Under the pieces are notes generated by a model. That model was not told the DNA's origin. It did not search any database and saw only the letters and a program-made list of their open reading frames with translations. A program made the translations under genes and the position numbers. From positions 1 to 64,000 of the forward strand of contig JANQGJ010000080.1 of assembly GCA_028277395.1 (NCBI GenBank): 64,000 bases of DNA, in the 5' to 3' direction. Positions 1 through 11,225 of the stretch are shown piece by piece. This DNA comes from Bacteroidales bacterium. GTDB taxonomy: Bacteria > Bacteroidota > Bacteroidia > Bacteroidales > F082. Position 1 is the first letter of the stretch, and the number at the start of each line of letters is the position of its first letter.

Positions 1-1114
1 CATATATTGTAGCTTTTTTGTTAAGATAATAAAACGCAGAAAGACCAAATTGATATTGGGTGGCAGCATTTAACTCTGAATAGTTGGCATTGAAATTAAA
101 TTTCAGGTTATTGAAATCCTTTTCAATATTCAGCCCGACAATGTAATTAAACAATGATGAATCAGATGTTGATAATTCAGTATCATAATACTGATAATCA
201 AAATATACAGGATTCTCACCATCTATCTGATAAGCAATTTCACTCTCCGTTACCAGTGTGCTGTTGATCTTAGTATTTGCTGTATTTATAAAAAGCAGAT
301 TACCATATAAATAAGTTGCCCAACCTTTATTAAATTGTAATTTAATATTTTGATATAACTCGTTTTGCTTTATTTTGAAATCATAAGATTCACGGTAAAA
401 ATTTAAATTAAATGAATAGTAATTTTGGTATCCCCATGATAAACTCTGAACCGAATCAAGCACCAGTTGTCCTTCTTCGTACTGAAAAGTTGTTTTCTTT
501 TGAATTTCCAGATAGCTATAGCCAAGATAATAACTTATTGCGGGTGTAAGCTGGAATCCCGAACCTACAGAAATAATTGATTTATCACCAATTAATATTT
601 CTAATCCTGCAATTGTATCATTGGAAGAGTTCAGATTATACCTGTCATTTAATTTATAATTATTGGAAAAAGAGTATCCTGTGTAGATATTAATATTTGA
701 TATTAATTTTGGTTTGTAGTTTAATACCTTCCTGGTACCATTATTAAATTTACTTCCTAATTTCAATGCTCTGGACTGCTTTCCCAGGATCAAATATGTG
801 TCATAAAGATATATTTGTGCTGTTCTGTCACCAGAATTGAATTCCAGTGCTTTCTCAAAATGCCCTGAAGCACCGGGGTAATTCATAAGGTTAAACTCGG
901 CAATTCCCATTCTCATCCTTAAATAGAAATAGTCAATATCATTTTTCAGAGCATACTTACCGATTGAAATTATTCTGAGCCAGTTTTCGTTTGTATAATC
1001 TGCAAATGTAGCCGAATCAATGCTTCTAAAATCCGGTTTTACAACAACTTCACGAGCATCAATTTGCAGCCAAATCGACATAATAACAACTGTTAACAGA
1101 ATCCTCCTAAGCAT
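1..1114 (-). CDS. TPR plus outer-membrane beta-barrel protein (3' end outside window)
   Basis: The frame opens at an ATG (1112-1114) and runs off the left edge without a stop, so only the first ~371 residues are visible. It starts with a signal peptide (MLRRILLTVVIMSIWLQIDA). About 80 residues of helical, TPR-like sequence follow (YFLRMRMGIAEFNLMNY, GHFEKALEFNSGDRTAQIY). The rest alternates aromatic and polar residues as amphipathic strands, such as YSFNLNFYRES and YDFKIKQNELYQNIKLQF. This architecture resembles the YaiO-type outer-membrane proteins, but I cannot confirm the family. It begins only 10 bp after the stop of the urea-transporter/M23 gene and is probably the distal gene of that operon. 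The role is inferred as an outer-membrane partner of the upstream enzymes. Confidence 0.7.
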   Translation of the reverse strand, partial: MLRRILLTVVIMSIWLQIDAREVVVKPDFRSIDSATFADYTNENWLRIISIGKYALKNDIDYFYLRMRMGIAEFNLMNYPGASGHFEKALEFNSGDRTAQIYLYDTYLILGKQSRALKLGSKFNNGTRKVLNYKPKLISNINIYTGYSFSNNYKLNDRYNLNSSNDTIAGLEILIGDKSIISVGSGFQLTPAISYYLGYSYLEIQKKTTFQYEEGQLVLDSVQSLSWGYQNYYSFNLNFYRESYDFKIKQNELYQNIKLQFNKGWATYLYGNLLFINTANTKINSTLVTESEIAYQIDGENPVYFDYQYYDTELSTSDSSLFNYIVGLNIEKDFNNLKFNFNANYSELNAATQYQFGLSAFYYLNKKATIY

Positions 1115-1124
1115 TATAACATTA

Positions 1125-3320
1125 TTAGTATATACGTGTTGCAACAATTTGAGTATTATTTTGCCCACATTCCAATTTTTCAATACCTGATTTGCCTGCT
1201 ATAATTGTGAAATCAAATTTACTAATGGTTCTATTCGCTATTCCAAAGTTTACAGATGATTTCAGGGTTATCTTTTTATTATTAATGGCATTGTCGTTTT
1301 TATAGTATTCAAGAGAATAATCTGCTACCAGAAATTTGTGAAAAGGTATAATAAAGTCCTGAAGAACCAAAAGTGCTTTATTAGGATATACATTTAGAGG
1401 AAATGAATCGGTAATAATCATATTCTTGTAATATGAAAGGGGAACCTTAAATGCTGAAAGATAGAACATATATAGCAGGGAGTTTGTACTGCCCTGATAA
1501 TATGTAAAATAAAACACATCACCAATATTATTAAACCAGGCTTTATCACCGGTACTTCTGCAAATTATATAAGTATTATTATATATATCTGATTCGATGT
1601 TCCATATAATTGTTGATGAATTATCCTGGTCAGTCTTAAATTCTATTTCATTTCCGGGAACAAAGTTAAACGCCTTTTTTAAGGTATCTTCCGATACTAA
1701 ATTAGAAACAAGCGCATTCTTTACCGGATTACTAATAGTATCAAACTTGAAATCATTGTTATCACGTGATATCAATGATGAAAAAGGATAATCAATTGTT
1801 TTTGATCCTATTGCCTGATCTGATTGAAACTGAAAATGAAGGTGAGGATAGGGTGATCTTCCCGAATTACCACAATATCCAATTATTTCACCTTGTTTAA
1901 CAACCTGACCTTGTGATACCAAAAGGCTATCTTTTTTTAAATGGCTAAGCTGGGAATACAGTTTTTCACCATGTTTTATAACAACACTGTTACCCCAGTT
2001 GTTTTGCAGATCAACATTGCCAATTTCATTATCATCAAGTCCCGATTCTATTTCCCCAACTACACCATCGGCAGGTGATACTACGGGTTTATCAAAGCAG
2101 TAGTAGTCTTCAACTTTGTTTCCGGATCCCTCATATGAACTACCATTTTCATTAAATATCTCAAAATCCCATGCATGTTTCCATTTGTCCTGATGAGTAA
2201 TTTCTCCGTTATGAGCCTGGGTAACTTTCCATTCACCCCAGAAAGGTAGTTTCATTGAATAAAATGGTAATTTACCAAATCTGTTCATGTAACTATAATT
2301 CGTATAAGCATGGAGCTCCGGAGAATCAAGTTGTTTTGAAACCACAATTATCGTATTAACTTTTGATTCCCTGAACTTTAACACATACAAAAACAGGATT
2401 ACAATAATATTGAATGGCAAAGAAAATACGCTTAAACCAAATTGGGCAAATAGTACAGAAGTACTGGAAAGAGTTATTGCCACCAAAGGAGTTAACAATA
2501 ACATCCATAGAACTGAGTTTCTTGAGGGTACAATGAAATAGCCACCAAGAGCTATTGCTGTAAGTATATAGTTGAAACCGATATAGCTGTAATTTAGTTC
2601 AGATATATCAGCACCGATTACCATGTAGAAATAATAGGCAGCAAAAAACCCCAACAATGACATAAAGAATGCTATTCTTGAGTAGTATATTAACCCGATT
2701 GCAAGCAGTATTCCGGCAAACATATGGTATTGAAACAAAATAGCACTTAACGATTTAAAATAGACTCTCAGTGGTTCCGGGAAATTCAGGTTATTAAACC
2801 ATTCATAGATCTTTACCATTCCCATTCCACCAACTGCGAACATATCGTTTAGATAATATATCCCTCTTTCACTTATTTCGAGTGCTGAATAGCCTCTTGA
2901 CGCGATTATTACTATCCATATTCCAAACAGAAAAGGAATACTTAAATATGGAAGACCGTATTTACCAATTATTCCTTCCAGGCTTATGGTTATCATAAGC
3001 GTTAATATGGAGATAAAAATTAGAATAAGGTAAAATTCGAATCCGGGCTGATAATAAATCCCGATGCCAAGTCCCACAAGCAAAGCATTAAATCCATATG
3101 CTCCGTTCATAATAGTTTTATTATTCAATCCAAGAATAATGGCAGTGGTATTGGCAATAATTACAGCTGACAGTCCGGCAACACCGGCATACAGATCAAA
3201 AAATGTTACAATAATTAATACTATTGCGAAAACCTGGTTTTTTGAAAAGAAAACCTGGGCATAACTATTTAATATGCTTTTTGATATTACACTTAAAGTA
3301 TCCCCGGAGTTCTTAAACAT
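1125..3320 (-). CDS. Urea-transporter domain fused to M23 (LytM-type) metallopeptidase
   Basis: This is a two-part protein of about 731 residues from the ATG at 3320; an in-frame TTG at 3347 would add nine residues. Roughly residues 20-320 are hydrophobic and carry both internal repeats of the UT urea-channel family: NGAYGFNALLVGLGIG in the first half, YSYIGFNYILTAIALGGYF in the second, and an LPYLSIPF segment. After the last membrane segment comes a soluble M23 domain (about 350-510). It has an AWDFE metal-ligand region with nearby histidines, a SHL motif and the terminal HLHF pair. About 200 residues without a recognised fold follow. The M23 part is inferred to face the periplasm. It lies between the decarboxylase and the beta-barrel gene. 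Whether the channel carries urea or another small amide is unknown. Confidence 0.85.
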   Translation of the reverse strand: MFKNSGDTLSVISKSILNSYAQVFFSKNQVFAIVLIIVTFFDLYAGVAGLSAVIIANTTAIILGLNNKTIMNGAYGFNALLVGLGIGIYYQPGFEFYLILIFISILTLMITISLEGIIGKYGLPYLSIPFLFGIWIVIIASRGYSALEISERGIYYLNDMFAVGGMGMVKIYEWFNNLNFPEPLRVYFKSLSAILFQYHMFAGILLAIGLIYYSRIAFFMSLLGFFAAYYFYMVIGADISELNYSYIGFNYILTAIALGGYFIVPSRNSVLWMLLLTPLVAITLSSTSVLFAQFGLSVFSLPFNIIVILFLYVLKFRESKVNTIIVVSKQLDSPELHAYTNYSYMNRFGKLPFYSMKLPFWGEWKVTQAHNGEITHQDKWKHAWDFEIFNENGSSYEGSGNKVEDYYCFDKPVVSPADGVVGEIESGLDDNEIGNVDLQNNWGNSVVIKHGEKLYSQLSHLKKDSLLVSQGQVVKQGEIIGYCGNSGRSPYPHLHFQFQSDQAIGSKTIDYPFSSLISRDNNDFKFDTISNPVKNALVSNLVSEDTLKKAFNFVPGNEIEFKTDQDNSSTIIWNIESDIYNNTYIICRSTGDKAWFNNIGDVFYFTYYQGSTNSLLYMFYLSAFKVPLSYYKNMIITDSFPLNVYPNKALLVLQDFIIPFHKFLVADYSLEYYKNDNAINNKKITLKSSVNFGIANRTISKFDFTIIAGKSGIEKLECGQNNTQIVATRIY

Positions 3321-3490
3321 ACTAGTTGATTTGTGAAAAAAATACAAATAATTATTTTGGTTCTGACTATTATCATGTTATTCCAAAGAAGATGAAATCA
3401 GGTTTACCGGATTGAAAATCGTGATTTCAAATATGGAGTAACTGAAATAAAATAAAGAACAATCAAACTTACAATTTTTATACTGACTTT

Positions 3491-4849
3491 CTATAATTCA
3501 AAATCTTTTAAATGATCAGGAACCTTTTCCACATCCAGCAGGTTTTGAAGTTTTTCATCTTCCCTGATAATGTGTGTATTACCTTCTATATCAATTAAAA
3601 CGATTTTAGGACGCAGAGTAATAAATTGCATCCACTGGGTCATATTGTATGCTCCTACATTATGTATTACTACTTTATCACCTTTGTTGAGAAGAGGAAG
3701 ACTTATATGATCACGAATTATGTCAATGTTCATGCAAAGAGGGCCATATAGTACCGTGTCTTCAGTATATTGGGTAAATGGCTGAGCCGGTGTAATTTTG
3801 TGGTCGTACCAAAATGATGTAAACAGGATATTGACACCTACATCCAGAATTGTGCTTCTACGCCCGTCAGATAGTCTTTTATTTGATAATACACTACCAA
3901 TTAAGTATCCGGCATCATCTACAAGCGCCCTACCTGTTTCAAGTATTAATAATGGTAATTTGTCGTGCTCAAAATTACTGGAAATCAAAGCACTGGTTAT
4001 AGCTTCTGCGAAATCGTTAATTGAAGGACTAATATCTGTACCTGGCAGATATGCTCCTTTTAATGTATTGTTTGATGCAAAACCACCTCCCATGTCTATG
4101 TAACTGACTTCATGATCAAATTTTTCCTTAATACCAATCGCCAGTTCTGCAAGTTTACCAGCGGCAACAGCATATGCATTTGGTGATAACATAAATGTAC
4201 CAATATGAGTATGCAGACCTACCAGAGTCATAATATCTGAACGCATGATTCTGTTTAGAACATCCCATGCCTGTCCATTTTCAAAATTAAAACCAAACCT
4301 GTCCCACATTGGATATACACCTGTATCCATATTCACCCTGATGGCTACGTTAACATCTTTATTCAGATTACCGGCAATTTCTTTTATTGCATAAAATTCA
4401 TCGAGATGGTCAATGTGAATAATTGATTCGTTTGTAATAGCTTTTTTAAGATCATCATCAGTTTTGTCAGGCCCGTTGAATAAAATTTTAGATCCCTCAA
4501 CACCATTGTTTAATGCTTTGTCGTATTCAAATCCCGAAACAACCTCAGCCCACGATCCTTCCTGGTGAAGCACCCGACAAACAGCATCATTATAATTTGT
4601 TTTGTACGACCATGCAAATTGTACTTTCGGATACCTGGTTTCGAATGCTTTTTTAGCGTTACGAATATTGGACCTCAGGGTTTTTTCACTCAATACGAAA
4701 AGTGGTGATCCATATTTATCGGCCAGTTCCGTTACAGCAACATCATCAATATGAGTTTTGGGTAAATATTCAGTACGTGTACCAAATTTGTTTGGCATAT
4801 TACTTTCAAGTTTCTTAATTAGCGGTCGTTCGTATCTTTGTTTATCCAT
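3491..4849 (-). CDS. PLP-dependent fold-III amino acid decarboxylase (ornithine/diaminopimelate/arginine type)
   Basis: The 452-residue enzyme has an alanine-racemase-like PLP barrel followed by the C-terminal sheet domain of Orn/DAP/Arg decarboxylases. Visible active-site features are the PLP-linking lysine in SYKTNYN (K83), HTHIGTF near 213-219, the phosphate-binding GGGF (254-257), ETGR (304-307, usually EPGR) and the catalytic cysteine in YGPLCMNID (C372). All key residues are present, so it should be active. The substrate cannot be read from sequence. Its place in a cluster rather than near lysine-biosynthesis genes argues against housekeeping LysA. It sits 30 bp after the ATP-grasp gene on the same strand. 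The long N-terminal extension (about 35 residues before the barrel) is unlike short LysA proteins. Confidence 0.87.
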   Translation of the reverse strand: MDKQRYERPLIKKLESNMPNKFGTRTEYLPKTHIDDVAVTELADKYGSPLFVLSEKTLRSNIRNAKKAFETRYPKVQFAWSYKTNYNDAVCRVLHQEGSWAEVVSGFEYDKALNNGVEGSKILFNGPDKTDDDLKKAITNESIIHIDHLDEFYAIKEIAGNLNKDVNVAIRVNMDTGVYPMWDRFGFNFENGQAWDVLNRIMRSDIMTLVGLHTHIGTFMLSPNAYAVAAGKLAELAIGIKEKFDHEVSYIDMGGGFASNNTLKGAYLPGTDISPSINDFAEAITSALISSNFEHDKLPLLILETGRALVDDAGYLIGSVLSNKRLSDGRRSTILDVGVNILFTSFWYDHKITPAQPFTQYTEDTVLYGPLCMNIDIIRDHISLPLLNKGDKVVIHNVGAYNMTQWMQFITLRPKIVLIDIEGNTHIIREDEKLQNLLDVEKVPDHLKDFEL

Positions 4850-4879
4850 TTTATTTCTATTTTGTAGGTTTTTACTTTT

Positions 4880-5923
4880 CTATAACTCACCGGTTGTTGA
4901 TATTTTTTCAAATTCCTCAAGGTCAACTATCATTTCCCATGAATACCTGATAAACATTTTTCCTGCTTTGAACTCTTTTATGGGTTCAACATTAATCCCC
5001 ATAGCCAGGTTTACTATTATTTCAGGAATGTTTTGTCCAACACCGACAGCAAGATATACCCATGCAGGTATTCTGGGATTTATTTCAAGAAGGTAGAAAC
5101 TACCGTCCTTATTTTTCATAAGTTCCAGTTCAAATCCTCCCCTCCATTTAGTTTCACGAATGAAATGATGTGTTAATTCTATTAGTTTTTCATCTGTAAT
5201 AGCTATTCCACCCCAGGCTTTACCAATGTCAGTAATGTACTGTTTACGCATGGGAACAGCTGAAATGGTATTTCCATTACCATCACCAACGCCTGTAACA
5301 TTGTATTCAGTACCATGTGAAAACTCCTGAATTATAATTGGCAATCCCCATTTTGCAGATATTTTGTTGAAATAGGTTGTTACCTGCTCATAATTATAAG
5401 CAATACCTGCATCATAATATTTTCCTTTTACAACCACAGGCCAGTCGTATTTATCCTGAATTTTCCGGAAATCAACCACTGAATATATTGCTTCACTTTT
5501 TGGGACATTAATATCATACTTTTCACCAAACTCAGGAAGGTTTATTTTAAGTCTCTCTTCAAATTGTTCCAGAGTTGGTAAAAAAGTATGTATTCCAAGT
5601 TCTTTAAGTCTGGTTTCCAGCTTGATGAACGAATAAAGCTCAGCGTCAAAATTCGGAATTATTACATCAAGGTTTTCAATACCATTAATGTATTCAATTC
5701 TTTCGAGTAGCAGATCTGTCCCTGCAGAAGGATATGGTATTTGGTATGTTTTATCAACCAGGTTATGCATGTATATTCCAGGTTCCAGCGACTCATATGC
5801 AAGTCCTATGATGCTGGCTTCAAAAGACTCTGCTTCCAGCAATCCACGGATTACAGCAACCCCAGGACCCGGATTGTCAATTGCATTTAATCCGGTTACA
5901 GCTATTTTGATTTTAGGCCGCAT
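4880..5923 (-). CDS. ATP-grasp ligase, carbamoyl-phosphate-synthase-like
   Basis: This protein of about 347 residues has the ATP-grasp layout. The N-terminal Rossmann-like preATP fold reads VTGLNAIDNPGPGVAVIRGLLEA. A central ATP-binding lobe contains WPVVVKGKYYDAG. The C-terminal Mg/ATP site holds GGFELELMKNKDGSFYLLEINPR, where the acidic and EINPR residues bind metal. It should activate a carboxylate as an acyl phosphate and join it to an amine or similar nucleophile. The ATG at 5923 lies inside the end of the PqqD-like gene (11-bp overlap); a TTG at 5935 is an alternative. Either start implies translational coupling. Together with the PqqD-like protein and the decarboxylase it suggests peptide or amino-acid modification. 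The substrate is unknown. Confidence 0.85.
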   Translation of the reverse strand: MRPKIKIAVTGLNAIDNPGPGVAVIRGLLEAESFEASIIGLAYESLEPGIYMHNLVDKTYQIPYPSAGTDLLLERIEYINGIENLDVIIPNFDAELYSFIKLETRLKELGIHTFLPTLEQFEERLKINLPEFGEKYDINVPKSEAIYSVVDFRKIQDKYDWPVVVKGKYYDAGIAYNYEQVTTYFNKISAKWGLPIIIQEFSHGTEYNVTGVGDGNGNTISAVPMRKQYITDIGKAWGGIAITDEKLIELTHHFIRETKWRGGFELELMKNKDGSFYLLEINPRIPAWVYLAVGVGQNIPEIIVNLAMGINVEPIKEFKAGKMFIRYSWEMIVDLEEFEKISTTGEL

Positions 5924-6167
5924 CTTGATTTTCAATTAATGAATACTGCTTAAGCAGATCAATAAAATCCGATACATCCTTGTCGATTGTTACAAGATCA
6001 GCATTGTATCTTTCAGCAATATTCTGATTTATTTCTTCAATTGTTTTTTCCTGTTTAAGCATTTCTATGATCTCAACACCAATGGGATTAACAGAGAATG
6101 ACTCTCCTGTGGTTGAATTGAAAACAAAACCTGAATCACTTACAGCAATATTTTTATTTATATTCAT
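5913..6167 (-). CDS. PqqD-like (RRE-type) small protein
   Basis: The 84-residue protein matches the PqqD-family pattern. A short beta region contains FVFNSTTGESFSVNPIGVEIIEML, then KTIEEINQNIAERYNADLVTIDKDVSDFIDLL as the winged-helix segment. In PQQ and RiPP pathways such domains bind the precursor peptide and hand it to modifying enzymes; in Bacteroidota they also occur in other ligase clusters. This is the first gene of the minus-strand cluster and overlaps the ATP-grasp start. No small precursor-peptide gene is obvious next to it, so the bound partner could be encoded elsewhere, or the protein may act as a carrier or chaperone. Those roles are inference. Confidence 0.75.
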   Translation of the reverse strand: MNINKNIAVSDSGFVFNSTTGESFSVNPIGVEIIEMLKQEKTIEEINQNIAERYNADLVTIDKDVSDFIDLLKQYSLIENQDAA

Positions 6168-6391
6168 CTTAAAGTTTATTTAGTTATTATTAAATGTATA
6201 ACTAATACTTATCTTCTTAATTATCGAAATTTTACATTTTAACATAATTTCACAATGCAATAATACATCATGCATAAGGAAGAAATGTTACAATATTTTA
6301 CATAAGATGTATAAAATTTTAATGTTTAAATATCCTGTATAAACTCTTTTCTTACACTTTTCTTAATGTGTTGGGTATGATATTTTGATTA

Positions 6392-6421
6392 TTCTGTCGA
6401 TAAAATTCACTGTTCTGTCGA
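6392..6421 (+). promoter_or_regulatory. Two perfect 9-bp direct repeats, probable LytTR-binding site
   Basis: TTCTGTCGA occurs at 6392-6400 and again at 6413-6421, with 12 bp between copies. LytTR-family regulators typically bind two 9-bp direct repeats separated by 12-13 bp on the same helix face. The pair lies just upstream of the promoter for a LytS/LytTR operon, so autoregulation is the natural reading. The binding assignment itself is inference. Confidence 0.6.
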
Positions 6422-6431
6422 CTGGAAACAG

Positions 6432-6458
6432 TTGTTATACAAATGATTATTATTTTTG
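6432..6458 (+). promoter_or_regulatory. Bacteroidota-type promoter for the LytS/LytTR operon
   Basis: The -7 element is a perfect TAnnTTTG (TATTTTTG, 6451-6458). A TTG at 6432-6434 stands 16 bp upstream as the -33 part. The expected start of transcription is around 6465, leaving a leader of about 45 nt before the ATG at 6511. Confidence 0.6.
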
Positions 6459-6510
6459 CCAGCCTTACATTAGTGGGAATTAGTTAACATCAATCATAAG
6501 ATTTTCGTTT

Positions 6511-7644
6511 ATGAGATCTGAAAAGCTGATAAGTATTAGTATGCATGCATCAGTATGGGTTTTACTGTTTATTATGCCGTATTTGATATTTGATTTCTCA
6601 GCAGTGAAACTTTTTGAATTTTCACGGGTTTTTAATTTCGCAATTGCCATACTGTTTTTTTACTTTAACTACTTTATCCTGGTCCCGAACTTTCTTCTGA
6701 GAAAAAGAATATTCATATTCTTCTTGGTTATAGTATTAAGCGTTGGAGTAAGCATTGGGTTAAGCGTTTTAATAAAGAATGTGGCTCCAAACGCCTTTTT
6801 AAGTGAAAAAGAAATATCCGATCAAAGTAATTATAATACCAATGAAGTTGAAACAACTCAGGAGGTTTATGCTATTGACGAGTCATCTGATAAACAATTC
6901 AACAAGTTTATTGAACAGAACAGGAAGCACTTCTTTATAAAAAAACGGTTTACATCATTATTGATATTATTTGTCTTGTTTAGTTTTTTGATAAGTACAA
7001 TTATTAAACTTACAAGAGAGTGGTACCAAAACGAAAAGCTTAAACAGGAAATGGAAAATACCAGCCTTAAGTCTGAATTGTCATTTCTTAAATCGCAGGT
7101 AAATCCACATTTCCTGTTTAACACTCTTAACGGTATATATGCACTCGCAATTAAAAAATCTGATGAAACACCAACGGCAATTGTCAAACTATCTGAATTA
7201 ATGAGATATATGCTTTATGAGTCGGAAAAAGATCTTGTATTACTTGATGATGAAATAGAATACCTGAGGAATTTTATAGAATTGCAAAAACTACGCTTAC
7301 CAAAAAATGCCAGCATTGTTTTTAATACCGGATCGAATGTAACTAAAGGAATAACAATTGAACCTATGCTGTTTATAGCTTTTGTTGAGAATGCATTTAA
7401 GCACGGACAGGATATCGATGGTGTTGAAATTTCGGTTGAATTGAAAGTAAATGAAAGTGAACTGATATTAGATGTAGTCAATAGTATATCAAATTCAGCC
7501 TCCAAGGATCATACTTCAGGAATAGGATTGGTTAATATTCGTAAACGACTTGATTTATTGTATGGTGAAAACTACAACCTTGAGCAGTGGGTACATGATA
7601 ATTATTACAATATCTGTTTAAAACTAAAATTAAAAAAGCCATGA
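6511..7644 (+). CDS. LytS-type sensor histidine kinase
   Basis: The 377-residue membrane kinase has three clear N-terminal hydrophobic segments (about 10-30, 42-60, 66-88), a loop of about 55 residues and a fourth segment near 147-165. A short coiled coil follows, then the His_kinase domain (PF06580 type). The phospho-acceptor histidine is H200 in SQVNPHFLFNTLNGIY. The ATP-binding part shows FVENAFKHG and GIGLVNIRKRLDLLYG. It should autophosphorylate in response to an envelope signal and pass phosphate to the LytTR regulator, whose ATG overlaps its stop codon by 4 bp. The sensing loop between segments 3 and 4 has no recognisable domain, so the signal is unknown. Confidence 0.93.
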   Translation: MRSEKLISISMHASVWVLLFIMPYLIFDFSAVKLFEFSRVFNFAIAILFFYFNYFILVPNFLLRKRIFIFFLVIVLSVGVSIGLSVLIKNVAPNAFLSEKEISDQSNYNTNEVETTQEVYAIDESSDKQFNKFIEQNRKHFFIKKRFTSLLILFVLFSFLISTIIKLTREWYQNEKLKQEMENTSLKSELSFLKSQVNPHFLFNTLNGIYALAIKKSDETPTAIVKLSELMRYMLYESEKDLVLLDDEIEYLRNFIELQKLRLPKNASIVFNTGSNVTKGITIEPMLFIAFVENAFKHGQDIDGVEISVELKVNESELILDVVNSISNSASKDHTSGIGLVNIRKRLDLLYGENYNLEQWVHDNYYNICLKLKLKKP

Positions 7645-8348
7645 ATTGTATAATTGTTGATGATGAACCTCTGGCAAGAGAAATACTCGAGCAATTTGTT
7701 GGTAAAGTACCTTTTTTAAACCTAAAAGCTATATGTAGTAATGCTTTTCAGGCTATGGACGTAATTAATAATGATAAAATTGATCTGATATTTCTTGATA
7801 TTCAGATGCCGGATTTATCGGGTATGCAGATGTATAAATCATTAAAAAACAAACCCCAGGTCATATTTACAACAGCCTACAGTGATTATGCCATTGAAGG
7901 ATTTGATGTTGATGCTACCGATTATTTATTAAAGCCAACAACATATGAACGATTTATGAAAGCAGTTGTAAAAGCATTTGATATTTATAGCAAAATAAAT
8001 TCTGATATTGAATTCAGAGGTAAACAAAATAGTACAGAATTTCTTTTTGTAAAAGACGGTACAAAAACCATTAATGTTCGTCTTTCAGATGTTCTTTATA
8101 TGGAAGGAATGAAAGATTATATAAGGATACATACCAGTGATAGAACCATAACAACCCTAATGTCAATGCAGCTAATGATGGAGAAATTAGATCCTGAAAT
8201 ATTTATAAGAGTTCATCGTTCATATATAGTTTCCATTTCAAATATTGACACTATCCAACGTAACAGGATTATTATTGGTGATAAGTGGATACCCGTTGGT
8301 GATTTCTATAAAGAAAATTTCAGAGAACTGATAAATAAGTATAATTAG
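7641..8348 (+). CDS. LytTR-family response regulator
   Basis: The 235-residue regulator has a receiver domain with acidic pocket DDEP (7-10), phospho-acceptor D53 in FLDIQMPDLSG and the conserved lysine in LLKPTTYERF. The C-terminal half is a LytTR DNA-binding domain (about 135-235) with VLYMEGMKDYIRIHT and FIRVHRSYIV. Translation is coupled to the kinase gene through an ATGA overlap. The 9-bp direct repeats at 6392 and 6413 are likely targets, and a weaker pair at 8414/8435 lies just after this gene. Downstream targets probably include the TonB receptor operon at 8910, which is inferred from position only. Confidence 0.93.
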   Translation: MNCIIVDDEPLAREILEQFVGKVPFLNLKAICSNAFQAMDVINNDKIDLIFLDIQMPDLSGMQMYKSLKNKPQVIFTTAYSDYAIEGFDVDATDYLLKPTTYERFMKAVVKAFDIYSKINSDIEFRGKQNSTEFLFVKDGTKTINVRLSDVLYMEGMKDYIRIHTSDRTITTLMSMQLMMEKLDPEIFIRVHRSYIVSISNIDTIQRNRIIIGDKWIPVGDFYKENFRELINKYN

Positions 8349-8909
8349 CAGTGTTGAGGGTTTAACCATTATATATCATACAGGAATTAATTCCTTATCG
8401 ATTATAAGAACATTTCTGTCTGATTTCTAAATGCTCCTGTATAAAAATTTTGTTAGTTGATAAACCCCAATGCAATTTTGCGTTGTATTATTGAGAAGAA
8501 AACCTGTAAATGCCTGGTAGATTTTGTAAAAAAGATGCTTTTACCTATTTGTAACGATTCAGTCATAACATGAGCAAGTTCATCTTGAAACAAATATGTG
8601 GAAACAGGAAAGGTTACCGGCTTTTTGAGTGATATCATAATTCAAATTTGTATTTTTTAACATATATCAGGAGAACTAAAACAATGAGTTTGGACAGTTT
8701 GCGTTTATCAACCTTAATGAAAAGAAATAAAATATATGTATCAGGAATTAAAATATTGTGTAGTTAAAGTAGAGATAAAAGAGAAAAGAAGAGTTATTAA
8801 TCAAGAGGGTAATTTTTTTTAATCTGATTGTCAAATTTTAATAACCCGTAGTATAGGTGTTTTCCTGCCCGCCTTTAAAGCAGGACTTATAATATAAGAG
8901 GCTATAAAT
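8349..8909. other. Long intergenic region upstream of TonB receptor gene
   Basis: This 561-bp AT-rich region has no convincing gene. It holds a perfect 14-bp palindrome AGGAATTAATTCCT (8382-8395) and a degenerate LytTR-like pair (TTCTGTCTG at 8414, TCCTGTATA at 8435, 21 bp start to start). A hairpin TCCTGC/GCAGGA with an 11-nt loop (8863-8885) ends 24 bp before the TonB receptor ATG. The hairpin could act in the leader or as a weak attenuator. I see no clean TAnnTTTG promoter close to 8910. Confidence 0.45.
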
Positions 8910-11225
8910 ATGTTAAAAGTAAAATTGATTTCAATTATTTTAATAATCTTTTCATTAGGATTAGCTGCACAGAACCGGTCCACTTTAAGTGGATATGTAA
9001 GAGATGCATCATCAGGTGAGGAGTTGATAGGGGCAACAATTTACATTGAAGAACTAGAAAGCGGAGGGGTTACAAATGTTTATGGTTTTTATTCAGTAAC
9101 AGTACCAAACTCAAAATATAATATCAGGTATAGTTATGTTGGGTTTGAGTCAAAAACAATTGTGGTTGATCTCCGGTCTGATAGAATAATTGATATTGAA
9201 CTGGAAACAACAGAATCAACCCTGAATGAGGTTGTTATTAAAGGTGTGGCAGATAATGAAAATATCCGTTCCTCGGAAATGGGAGTTGTAAAGATGGATA
9301 TTAAAGAAATAAACAAAATACCTGTACTATTTGGTGAACAGGATATCATAAAAACACTTACATTGATGCCAGGAGTAAGCGGCGGAGGAGAAGGAAAGGG
9401 TGGATTTTACGTAAGAGGCGGAAATACAGACCAAAACCTTATTCTGCTGGACGAAGCTCCTGTATATAATGCAAGCCATTTAATGGGTTTCTTTTCTGTA
9501 TTTAATTCTGATGCCATTAAAGATATGACCCTTTATAAAGCAGGTATTCCTGCAAAATTTGGCGGAAGGCTTAGCTCTGTACTGGATGTACACATGAAGG
9601 ATGGAAACCAGAAACAATATAACGTTTCAGGAGGTTTAGGATTAATTTCATCAAGATTAACTGTTGAAGGACCAATTGTACAGGATAAAGGGGCATTTAT
9701 AGTTTCGGGTCGTAGAACCTATGCGGATATAATATATGGTTTATTTGATTCAGATTTTGACGATATGGCCCTATTCTTCTATGATTTAAACGCAAAAGCA
9801 AATTATAAAATAGGAACCAGCGACAGAATATTTATTTCAGGATATTTTGGTAAAGATAAACTTGGTACTGAGAACTTTGGCTTTGAATGGGGTAATACCA
9901 CAGGCACATTTCGATGGAATCATTTATTTAATAGCAGGCTTTTCTCAAATACTTCGTTGATCTATAGCAGTTATGATTATGAAATAGACATAAACCAAAG
10001 CAACTCTGAGTTCAACATATCATCCGGTATTGAAGATTATCACGTTAAGCAGGATTTTACTTACTTTTTGAACACAAACAACAAAATCAAGTTTGGAATG
10101 GATGTTATTTATCATACTTTCAAACCAGGTGAACTGCTTTCAGAAGGCGATACACAAACAGATAATATTATAATTGATAAAAAATATGCTTTCGAAAGCG
10201 GATTGTACCTTTCCAATGAACAGAAAATTGGATCAACCATTGCTATGGAATATGGTATCAGACTTTCAATGTTTAACGAAGTAGGTCCGGGATTTGTTTA
10301 TCAATATGATGAAAACGGTGAAATAATAGGTGAGGAATCATATAATAAGGGAGATATTATTAAAACATATATAGTTCCTGAGCCCAGGATATCAATGAGT
10401 TATATTCTGAATGAGAAAAGCTCGGTGAAGGCCTCCTACCAAAGAAATGCACAATATATACACCTTCTTTCGGCATCAACATCCGACAATCCGACCGATG
10501 TATGGATGCCAAGTAGTTCACTTATTAAACCTGAAACGGCAAATCAGTATTCAATAGGATATTTTAGAAACTTTTTGAATAACACATTTGAAACATCTAT
10601 AGAAGTTTATTATAAAAACATGACAGACCTGGTTGATTATAAGGATGGAGCAAATGTACTGCTTAATGAGCATGTGGAAGCTGATCTGGTATTTGGAACG
10701 GGAAGATCCTATGGGATTGAATTTATGATAAAAAAGAGTTTGGGAAGATTTACCGGCTGGCTTGGATATACCCTGTCGAAAACCGAAAATAAATTTGATG
10801 CGATTAACGATGGAAACTGGTTTTCAGCAAGACAAGACAGGACAAATGATATTTCAATTGTTGGAATGTACGAACTATCCGACAAAGTATCGGTATCAGC
10901 CACATGGATTTATTACACAGGAGATGCTGTAACCATGCCAAGTGGTCAATATTTAATAGATGGTAATATTGTACCTTTATATACAGAAAGAAACGGATAT
11001 CGGATGCCTGATTATCACAGGCTTGATTTAAGCTTAACACTTAAGGGAAAGCAAACAAAAAAATTTAAGTCAAGCTGGAATTTCTCAATATATAATGCAT
11101 ATGCTCGTGAAAATGCATATTCAATCTCATTTGCAGAAAGCGAAACCATGCCGGGAGTTATGGAATCAACACAATTCTCATTATTTTCAATCGTCCCATC
11201 AATTACATGGAATTTTAAATTTTAG
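8910..11225 (+). CDS. TonB-dependent outer-membrane receptor with carboxypeptidase-regulatory-like domain
   Basis: The 771-residue protein begins with a signal peptide (to about residue 20, LGLAAQ). A CarboxypepD_reg-like beta-sandwich follows (STLSGYVRDASSGEELIGATIYIEE). The plug domain has LMPGVSGGGEGKGGFYVRGG and DQNLILLDEAPVYNASH, and the 22-strand barrel ends in the typical C-terminal ITWNFKF. It imports or binds a large ligand at the outer membrane using TonB energy; the ligand is unknown. It is shorter than SusC receptors and is paired with a DUF4249 lipoprotein gene 5 bp downstream, a standard Bacteroidota pairing distinct from SusC/SusD. The upstream LytS/LytTR pair is its likely regulator. 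Confidence 0.93.
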   Translation: MLKVKLISIILIIFSLGLAAQNRSTLSGYVRDASSGEELIGATIYIEELESGGVTNVYGFYSVTVPNSKYNIRYSYVGFESKTIVVDLRSDRIIDIELETTESTLNEVVIKGVADNENIRSSEMGVVKMDIKEINKIPVLFGEQDIIKTLTLMPGVSGGGEGKGGFYVRGGNTDQNLILLDEAPVYNASHLMGFFSVFNSDAIKDMTLYKAGIPAKFGGRLSSVLDVHMKDGNQKQYNVSGGLGLISSRLTVEGPIVQDKGAFIVSGRRTYADIIYGLFDSDFDDMALFFYDLNAKANYKIGTSDRIFISGYFGKDKLGTENFGFEWGNTTGTFRWNHLFNSRLFSNTSLIYSSYDYEIDINQSNSEFNISSGIEDYHVKQDFTYFLNTNNKIKFGMDVIYHTFKPGELLSEGDTQTDNIIIDKKYAFESGLYLSNEQKIGSTIAMEYGIRLSMFNEVGPGFVYQYDENGEIIGEESYNKGDIIKTYIVPEPRISMSYILNEKSSVKASYQRNAQYIHLLSASTSDNPTDVWMPSSSLIKPETANQYSIGYFRNFLNNTFETSIEVYYKNMTDLVDYKDGANVLLNEHVEADLVFGTGRSYGIEFMIKKSLGRFTGWLGYTLSKTENKFDAINDGNWFSARQDRTNDISIVGMYELSDKVSVSATWIYYTGDAVTMPSGQYLIDGNIVPLYTERNGYRMPDYHRLDLSLTLKGKQTKKFKSSWNFSIYNAYARENAYSISFAESETMPGVMESTQFSLFSIVPSITWNFKF

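Follow-up and report, generated by a model that had tools for sequence, protein, structure and literature searches.

A co-inherited six-gene operon of Bacteroidota that may produce and export a small amine- or amide-type compound

What might a bacterium do with a ligase, a decarboxylase and a zinc peptidase fused to a urea channel, when all are encoded in a single row of genes? The question is raised by one end of a 64,000-nucleotide stretch of Bacteroidales DNA (hereafter the window; assembly GCA_028277395.1, contig JANQGJ010000080.1, positions 1 to 64,000), where five open reading frames (ORFs) at positions 1-6167, all on the minus strand, encode a PqqD-like protein, an ATP-grasp ligase, a fold-III pyridoxal phosphate (PLP) decarboxylase, a urea-transporter (UT)/M23 peptidase fusion (UT-M23) and a tetratricopeptide repeat (TPR)/beta-barrel protein. 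By sequence, these genes belong to a co-inherited unit whose products fall into recognisable families, retain their catalytic residues and include a decarboxylase that is not the lysine enzyme LysA. We put at roughly 0.4 the probability that the unit is a six-gene pathway in which conjugation, decarboxylation and M23-mediated release yield a small compound, of amine or amide type, for export.

A first-pass annotation, made from the sequence of the window alone, had described the five minus-strand genes, and all five ORFs are confirmed here. Its spacings (an 11-bp overlap, then 30, 170 and 10 bp) are reproduced if translation begins at the ATG codons at 5923, 3320 and 1114; alternative TTG starts at 5935, 3347 and 1183, given by mechanical choice of the longest ORF, are also possible. 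Position 1 of the window is base 1 of its contig (C28), and the barrel gene is therefore truncated there. Positions 1-99 are identical over 99 bases to the end of another contig, C54, the pattern expected of an assembly-graph overlap, and the two contigs probably adjoin. C54 supplies the C-terminus of the barrel as well as a sixth gene, encoding a 206 aa TPR protein and overlapping the barrel gene, beyond which lies a gene that resembles (by eye) a heptosyltransferase. With this continuation included, the operon comprises six genes (Table 1).

Rare co-occurrence of the genes was the outcome that the first-pass annotation had named as fatal to its proposal; what emerges instead is one co-inherited unit. 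GTDB genomes were scanned with an alignment of 23 ATP-grasp sequences, and a relative is encoded in at least 567 stretches. The best 80 of these 567, together with 20 of 26 other genomes with a strong ATP-grasp match, were fetched with wide flanks to give 100 loci, a sample chosen by ATP-grasp presence and made up of loci that are related by descent, hence dependent. The phylum is called Bacteroidota from record titles, a few of which differ (Chlorobiota, Kapaibacterium and one Bifidobacterium label). The core genes found lie on the same strand and in the same order in 100/100 loci: the PqqD-like gene in 98 (adjoining the ATP-grasp gene in each), the decarboxylase in 97, UT in 90, M23 in 85, TPR in 72 and the barrel, as sought by BLAST, in 64. 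Many of the absences fall at contig ends, and loci without UT, decarboxylase or barrel often end within ~1 kb; one locus (L133) has no PqqD match despite 8 kb of upstream sequence, and its UT-M23 protein is shorter. With mechanical (longest) starts, the UT and barrel genes overlap in 49/64 loci and the PqqD-like and ATP-grasp genes in 80/98, the latter overlap suggesting a protein complex.

A survey of 296 genomes of the phylum, with E limits of 1e-10 for the ATP-grasp and UT/M23 and 1e-60 for the decarboxylase, found the ATP-grasp (E <1e-90), the decarboxylase (E <1e-60) and UT with M23 in the identical 27 genomes, side by side in each, at most three UT/M23 candidates being scored per genome, a limit that stray UT genes could escape. 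Among the 27, UT and M23 are separate pieces or ORFs in two and the last domain is absent in one (G255); 36 other genomes match the fusion protein only from residue 340 onward, that is, in M23 only, and weak ATP-grasp matches occur in two additional genomes (G115 and G238). The linkage of the core genes is far beyond chance. In a plasmid collection there are three ATP-grasp matches (the best at 26%) and 92 records that match the decarboxylase, with every one of the 25 listed under 30%. Pairwise identities of the ATP-grasp, decarboxylase, UT domain and TPR protein correlate with each other (r 0.88-0.92), those of PqqD with these at 0.74-0.78 and those of M23 and the last domain with the ATP-grasp, decarboxylase and UT at 0.51-0.74 (0.78-0.81 for those pairs that were recalculated after L114, the UT-only row, had been removed); shared species history could explain these correlations, which are not used as evidence.

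The first-pass annotation had also allowed that the decarboxylase and the ATP-grasp protein might belong to a known amino-acid route. Neither score nor active site marks the decarboxylase as LysA, and the ATP-grasp protein exceeds the cut-off of no named family. The decarboxylase gives 229.5 bits with the FslC/FigC model NF041039 (NCBIfam cut-off 500), the top of the families listed, and 225.2 bits with the LysA model TIGR01048 (cut-off 297.9), below cut-off in both cases, and the operon decarboxylases of 26 further genomes likewise stay below cut-off on TIGR01048 at 213-248 bits. A separate LysA above cut-off is found in 23 of these 26 genomes and none above cut-off in the other three (G031, G116, G124). 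In the genome of the window, LysA (L169, G000:C8:35800-36714) is split into two ORFs by a stop in the assembly, which is either an assembly error or a true loss; in these four genomes only the active-site residues argue against a lysine role.

Those residues were counted in alignments from which rows running off contigs had been dropped, leaving 95 decarboxylase, 79 UT and 99 PqqD rows with the window included. K83, G254-G256 (GGG) and C372, which we take to be the PLP lysine, glycine motif and catalytic cysteine of fold-III decarboxylases, are invariant. The position of the diaminopimelate-binding arginine, in a 3-10 helix, is Thr in 94/95 rows and Ser in 1/95, and the residue after the catalytic cysteine is not acidic: it is Met in 95/95, in a loop that reads Cys-Met-(Asn/Gln)-Ile-Asp. 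A LysA or polyamine route for the enzyme was accordingly ruled out, on the sub-cut-off scores together with the lost diaminopimelate-binding arginine and acidic residue. The top PDB match is N-citrylornithine decarboxylase (7kh2, 9.2e-53), with diaminopimelate decarboxylase (DAPDC) behind at 1.1e-42. In PMC7857480, FigC too is described as having lost the DAPDC arginine and as carrying Met beside the cysteine, and FigC, SbnH, AcsE, MccE and BtrK are described as decarboxylating citryl conjugates, a peptide-nucleotide or a carrier-bound amino acid. Equivalents of FigC Thr327 and Tyr331 are retained in the operon enzyme. The citrate-binding H357 and R387 of FigC are replaced by Ile and Gln in 95/95 rows, so that a conjugate different from a citryl one is likely. 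The most likely substrate of the decarboxylase is therefore an amino acid linked, by the ATP-grasp enzyme encoded next to it, to a partner that is not citrate.

In the ATP-grasp protein, K170, E271, E284, N286 and R288, which we take to be catalytic residues, are invariant in the 23 sequences. Its AlphaFold model (pLDDT 91.2) is matched best by Foldseek to 2pn1, by its title a subunit of carbamoyl-phosphate synthase (TM 0.73/0.83), followed by carboxylases, carbamoyl-phosphate synthetase and RizA, an amino-acid ligase. The PqqD-like protein is the single PqqD-family match found in the assembly of the window (G000) and has an RRE (RiPP recognition element)/PqqD domain (Pfam 2.2e-13), of the kind that occurs in pathways to RiPPs (ribosomally synthesised and post-translationally modified peptides). 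Over 99 rows its hairpin is conserved and its C-terminus varies in both sequence and length; no conserved C-terminal attachment tail of the LysW kind was found in these rows.

Three parts make up the structure model of the fusion protein (pLDDT 90.5): a UT fold, which is complete (TM 0.80-0.88 by target length in a Foldseek match to dvUT), an M23 domain and, at the C-terminus, a domain of mostly beta structure. Structure comparison identifies the M23 fold as the LytM fold, whilst the beta domain that follows has no family match and is absent in L133 (a 532-aa protein). H385, D394, H469, H502 and H504, presumably the zinc ligands and catalytic histidine of M23, are all present in 78/79 rows, the 79th being the UT-only reading of L114. 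We take Gln24, Glu187, Thr130 and Thr294 of dvUT to be urea pore residues: the Gln24 position is Gln in 69/79 rows, the Thr130 and Thr294 positions are Ser in 76/79 and 62/79, and the half-repeat motifs are retained.

On which side of the membrane does the peptidase lie? With all loops counted, including the termini and central loop, there are 7.08 Lys+Arg per sequence on the N-terminal side versus 3.68 on the other, the N-terminal side being the richer in 75/79 rows; in the short loops only, the figures are 4.53 versus 0.20 (termini and central loop excluded, limits shifted by up to three residues and loops set by the helices of the model). In human UT-B, which spans the membrane with ten helices, the two termini are inside the cell (PMC5700210). 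No further hydrophobic segment intervenes between UT and M23 in the operon protein. The C-terminus of UT, and hence M23, is thus probably on the cytoplasmic side, a prediction made from the complete UT fold and the charge bias, and since M23 is predicted to be cytoplasmic, cleavage probably precedes export. In a one-contig genome, UT and M23 are two overlapping ORFs (L114:9944-12198), the result of a frame error or of a true split. The M23 ORF of this split has no signal peptide and was considered as proof of a cytoplasmic M23, but was set aside, given that a frame error could explain the split.

How might these proteins work together? We infer the scaffold, the substrate, the order of the steps and the direction of transport as follows. 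The PqqD-like protein would recruit or position a scaffold for the ATP-grasp ligase, which would spend ATP to attach an amino acid to it in such a way that a free alpha-amino-acid end is retained. The decarboxylase would then strip the alpha-carboxylate from the amino acid of the conjugate, a reaction with counterparts in FigC, SbnH, MccE and BtrK, each on its own substrate. Next, the zinc-peptidase domain (M23), facing the cytoplasm at the channel, would hydrolyse the conjugate at the mouth of the pore. The small product could leave via the UT-type pore, and the TPR/barrel and TPR proteins might enable its passage across, or its action at, the outer membrane. The most specific form of this scheme, in which a cytoplasm-facing zinc peptidase mounted on a passive channel frees the decarboxylated product at the pore mouth, hydrolysis lends direction to export and the outer membrane has a dedicated exit, would be an undescribed kind of release-and-export machine, present in many Bacteroidota; it is a rather unlikely refinement.

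Several observations weigh against the pathway. The position of dvUT Glu187 is never Glu (0/79 rows), and because this pore residue is absent throughout, urea is not a safe guess as the cargo; UT pores, moreover, are narrow. The location of M23 is a prediction based on homology, the helix limits of the model and charge bias. The three nearest free-standing relatives of M23 start, by eye, with signal-peptide-like stretches, and its ancestor was probably extracytoplasmic. The ATP-grasp protein lies near no characterised peptide ligase, with 17% identity to 2pn1 and RizA at rank 7. Two loci are genuine breaks of the unit: L073, without a decarboxylase or UT after the ATP-grasp gene, and L082, without UT within 8.6 kb. 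Lastly, there is the matter of the scaffold. The first-pass annotation had found no precursor peptide, a result that now extends across loci: no conserved precursor or scaffold was found among small ORFs (15-80 aa) on the strand of the operon between UT and a point 1200 bases upstream of PqqD, the region in which one was sought. Of 27 clustered small ORFs, 26 lie mostly inside longer ORFs, and the remaining one overlaps none by half. On this result, the involvement of a peptide, as first proposed, is hypothetical.

The same result favours a route with no scaffold at all, in which the ATP-grasp enzyme joins two small molecules, much as the NIS (NRPS-independent siderophore) synthetase does ahead of FigC in rhizoferrin synthesis, and the decarboxylase trims the product, PqqD serving as a structural partner and M23 as a regulatory or processing domain. 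The nearness of the decarboxylase to FigC and the variable C-terminus of PqqD fit this route as well. It is less easily squared with the retention of the five M23 catalytic residues in 78/79 rows, which calls for a peptide-like substrate, with the presence of the PqqD-like gene in 98/100 loci or with the replacement of the citrate-binding residues of FigC, and we regard it as possible, if on the unlikely side.

The first-pass annotation had itself proposed that a peptide or amino-acid amide made in the cytoplasm passes through UT, is cleaved by M23 in the periplasm and leaves through the barrel. The likeness of solved M23 relatives, and of the three free-standing ones, to exported enzymes would suit this order of events, but the complete UT fold, the lack of an extra hydrophobic segment before M23 and the loop charge bias place M23, by prediction, in the cytoplasm, and a UT pore is in general unlikely to pass a peptide. 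Periplasmic cleavage after transport is, in consequence, dropped from our scheme, and we consider this version quite unlikely.

A further possibility is that PqqD is itself a covalent carrier (like LysW or BtrI) that the ATP-grasp enzyme loads, the decarboxylase acts on and M23 relieves of the finished product. The small size of the protein and the overlap of its gene with that of the ligase (80/98 loci) are in keeping with such a role, for which BtrI and BtrK provide a precedent (PMC7857480) and the pearlins another, in a carrier-peptide chemistry that ends with a membrane-bound releasing protease (PMC9303977). The C-terminus, which has no LysW-like tail and varies over 99 rows in both length and sequence, tells against it as far as attachment by the tail is concerned, and we hold a PqqD carrier to be improbable. 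A cell-envelope module, in which UT-M23, barrel and TPR proteins keep up or alter the surface or the peptidoglycan, with the enzymes providing a decoration of lipid, sugar or peptidoglycan, would accord with the LytM fold of M23 and the weak VexE likeness of one TPR/barrel protein, but is equally improbable given the predicted cytoplasmic M23 and the occurrence of UT with M23 in the same 27 genomes as both enzymes.

That TPR/barrel protein, in L123, resembles VexE (a polysaccharide-export TPR protein) at 1.3e-05, far below cut-off, and the barrel gene of the window gives a weak TPR match (Pfam 0.017). Fourteen loci have room for a barrel but none by BLAST (L114, L120, L122, L124-L133 and, with 513 bases, L121). 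In seven loci (L120, L122, L125-L129), all from a more distant group, a second, ~280-aa secreted barrel-like family follows the TPR gene and matches the barrel family of the window by hhalign (probability 95.6), and L130-L132 encode a 280-286-aa protein at the barrel position.

Table 1 Positions of the operon genes, domains and neighbouring features (window coordinates unless a locus is named)
Feature	Position	Strand	Evidence or remark
PqqD-like (RRE-type) protein, 84 aa	5913..6167	-	Pfam PqqD 2.2e-13
ATP-grasp ligase, 347 aa from ATG (351 from TTG at 5935)	4880..5923	-	Pfam ATPgrasp_Ter 2.9e-10
Fold-III PLP decarboxylase, 452 aa	3491..4849	-	Pfam Orn_Arg_deC_N 4.5e-29 and Orn_DAP_Arg_deC 2.2e-12
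Urea-transporter/M23 fusion, 731 aa from ATG (740 from TTG at 3347)	1125..3320	-	Pfam UT 2e-58 and Peptidase_M23 2.3e-17
Complete UT channel domain, residues 23-323 of 740-aa reading	2379..3281	-	Pfam UT 2e-58; Foldseek to dvUT
M23 zinc-peptidase core (H385, D394, H469, H502, H504)	1836..2195	-	Alignment of 79 rows
C-terminal, mostly beta domain after M23	1128..1730	-	Secondary structure of model; conserved columns; no Pfam match
TPR/beta-barrel protein, putative outer-membrane barrel, truncated	1..1114	-	Remainder at L003:19523-19993 (contig C54)
TPR protein (sixth gene), 206 aa	L003:18915-19535 (contig C54)		Pfam TPR
Intergenic region upstream of operon	6168..6510	.	Between PqqD-like gene and divergent kinase/regulator pair
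LytTR-type histidine kinase/response regulator pair	6511-8348		Divergent from operon
IF-2B family protein	L035:7538-8368; also L050, L067, L070, L072, L079		Pfam 6.6e-19 (L035); NCBIfam matches (L035, L050)

Upstream of the ATP-grasp gene, 35/100 loci encode an AraC-type regulator with a Cys-containing N-terminal region (for example L037:5038-5613, assigned by Pfam for the L037 member), on the operon strand in 35/35 and starting within 3 kb of the ATP-grasp gene in 33/35; in the window, the divergent LytTR-type kinase/regulator pair occupies its place. An Rfam scan of window positions 1-9000 gave no match, riboswitches included, up to E 0.5. The pattern A[AT]ATTG[CT]A occurs 24 times in 22/99 upstream stretches versus 7.05 times in simple shuffles, about half of the occurrences being in L042-L066, and is perhaps a promoter element; the Bacteroidota promoter pattern tried matched 1/99 of the same stretches. 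In some loci other genes stand between the decarboxylase and UT-M23: the IF-2B family protein (ribose-1,5-bisphosphate isomerase or MtnA-like) in six, and a histidine kinase with a class I/II aminotransferase in L068 (L068:12543-15508, by Pfam), L081 and L086, the last two pairs being assigned by position and sequence start.

We found no description of the six-gene unit among the titles and abstract openings that searches of the open-licence literature gave, and an earlier account elsewhere is possible. The families are known; the combination, and what is probably a cytoplasmic channel-peptidase, are new. Of the genomes sampled in the phylum, roughly one in eleven (27/296) carries the unit. 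If the proposed pathway is correct, the known biology of a major environmental phylum would be extended by an exported metabolite, the urea-channel and LytM folds would have a new use and the conjugate-then-decarboxylate chemistry of siderophores, butirosin and microcin C (PMC7857480) a new setting.

How does the operon compare with known systems? With dvUT and the SLC14 urea channels, it has in common the complete UT fold, the Gln24 position (69/79 rows) and the half-repeat motifs, whereas it differs from them at the Glu187 position (never Glu), at the Thr130 and Thr294 positions (mostly Ser) and in its appended M23 and beta domains. LysW is a carrier in lysine and arginine biosynthesis, and butirosin synthesis uses, in BtrJ, an ATP-grasp ligase as the operon does. 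BtrI is a carrier protein, however, where the operon has a PqqD-like protein with a variable tail, and BtrK (2j66, 3.4e-23) is a weaker PDB match to the operon decarboxylase than FigC. A small protein paired with a fold-III decarboxylase is common to both systems, BtrK acting on a carrier-bound amino acid (PMC7857480). In the pearlin pathways (PEARL, TmoA carrier, TmoG), an amino acid is modified on a carrier peptide and freed by a membrane-bound protease (PMC9303977), as we suppose may happen here, although no carrier peptide was found in the operon, its ligase is an ATP-grasp enzyme and its protease is an M23 domain fused to a channel. The FigC/FslC system of rhizoferrin synthesis, as described in the cited part of PMC7857480, differs in lacking PqqD, UT-M23 and barrel proteins, in a ligase that is an NIS synthetase rather than an ATP-grasp enzyme and in H357 and R387 of FigC, which are Ile and Gln in all operon rows; what it shares with the operon is a fold-III decarboxylase that acts after conjugation, with Met beside the cysteine, the DAPDC arginine lost and equivalents of Thr327 and Tyr331 in place.

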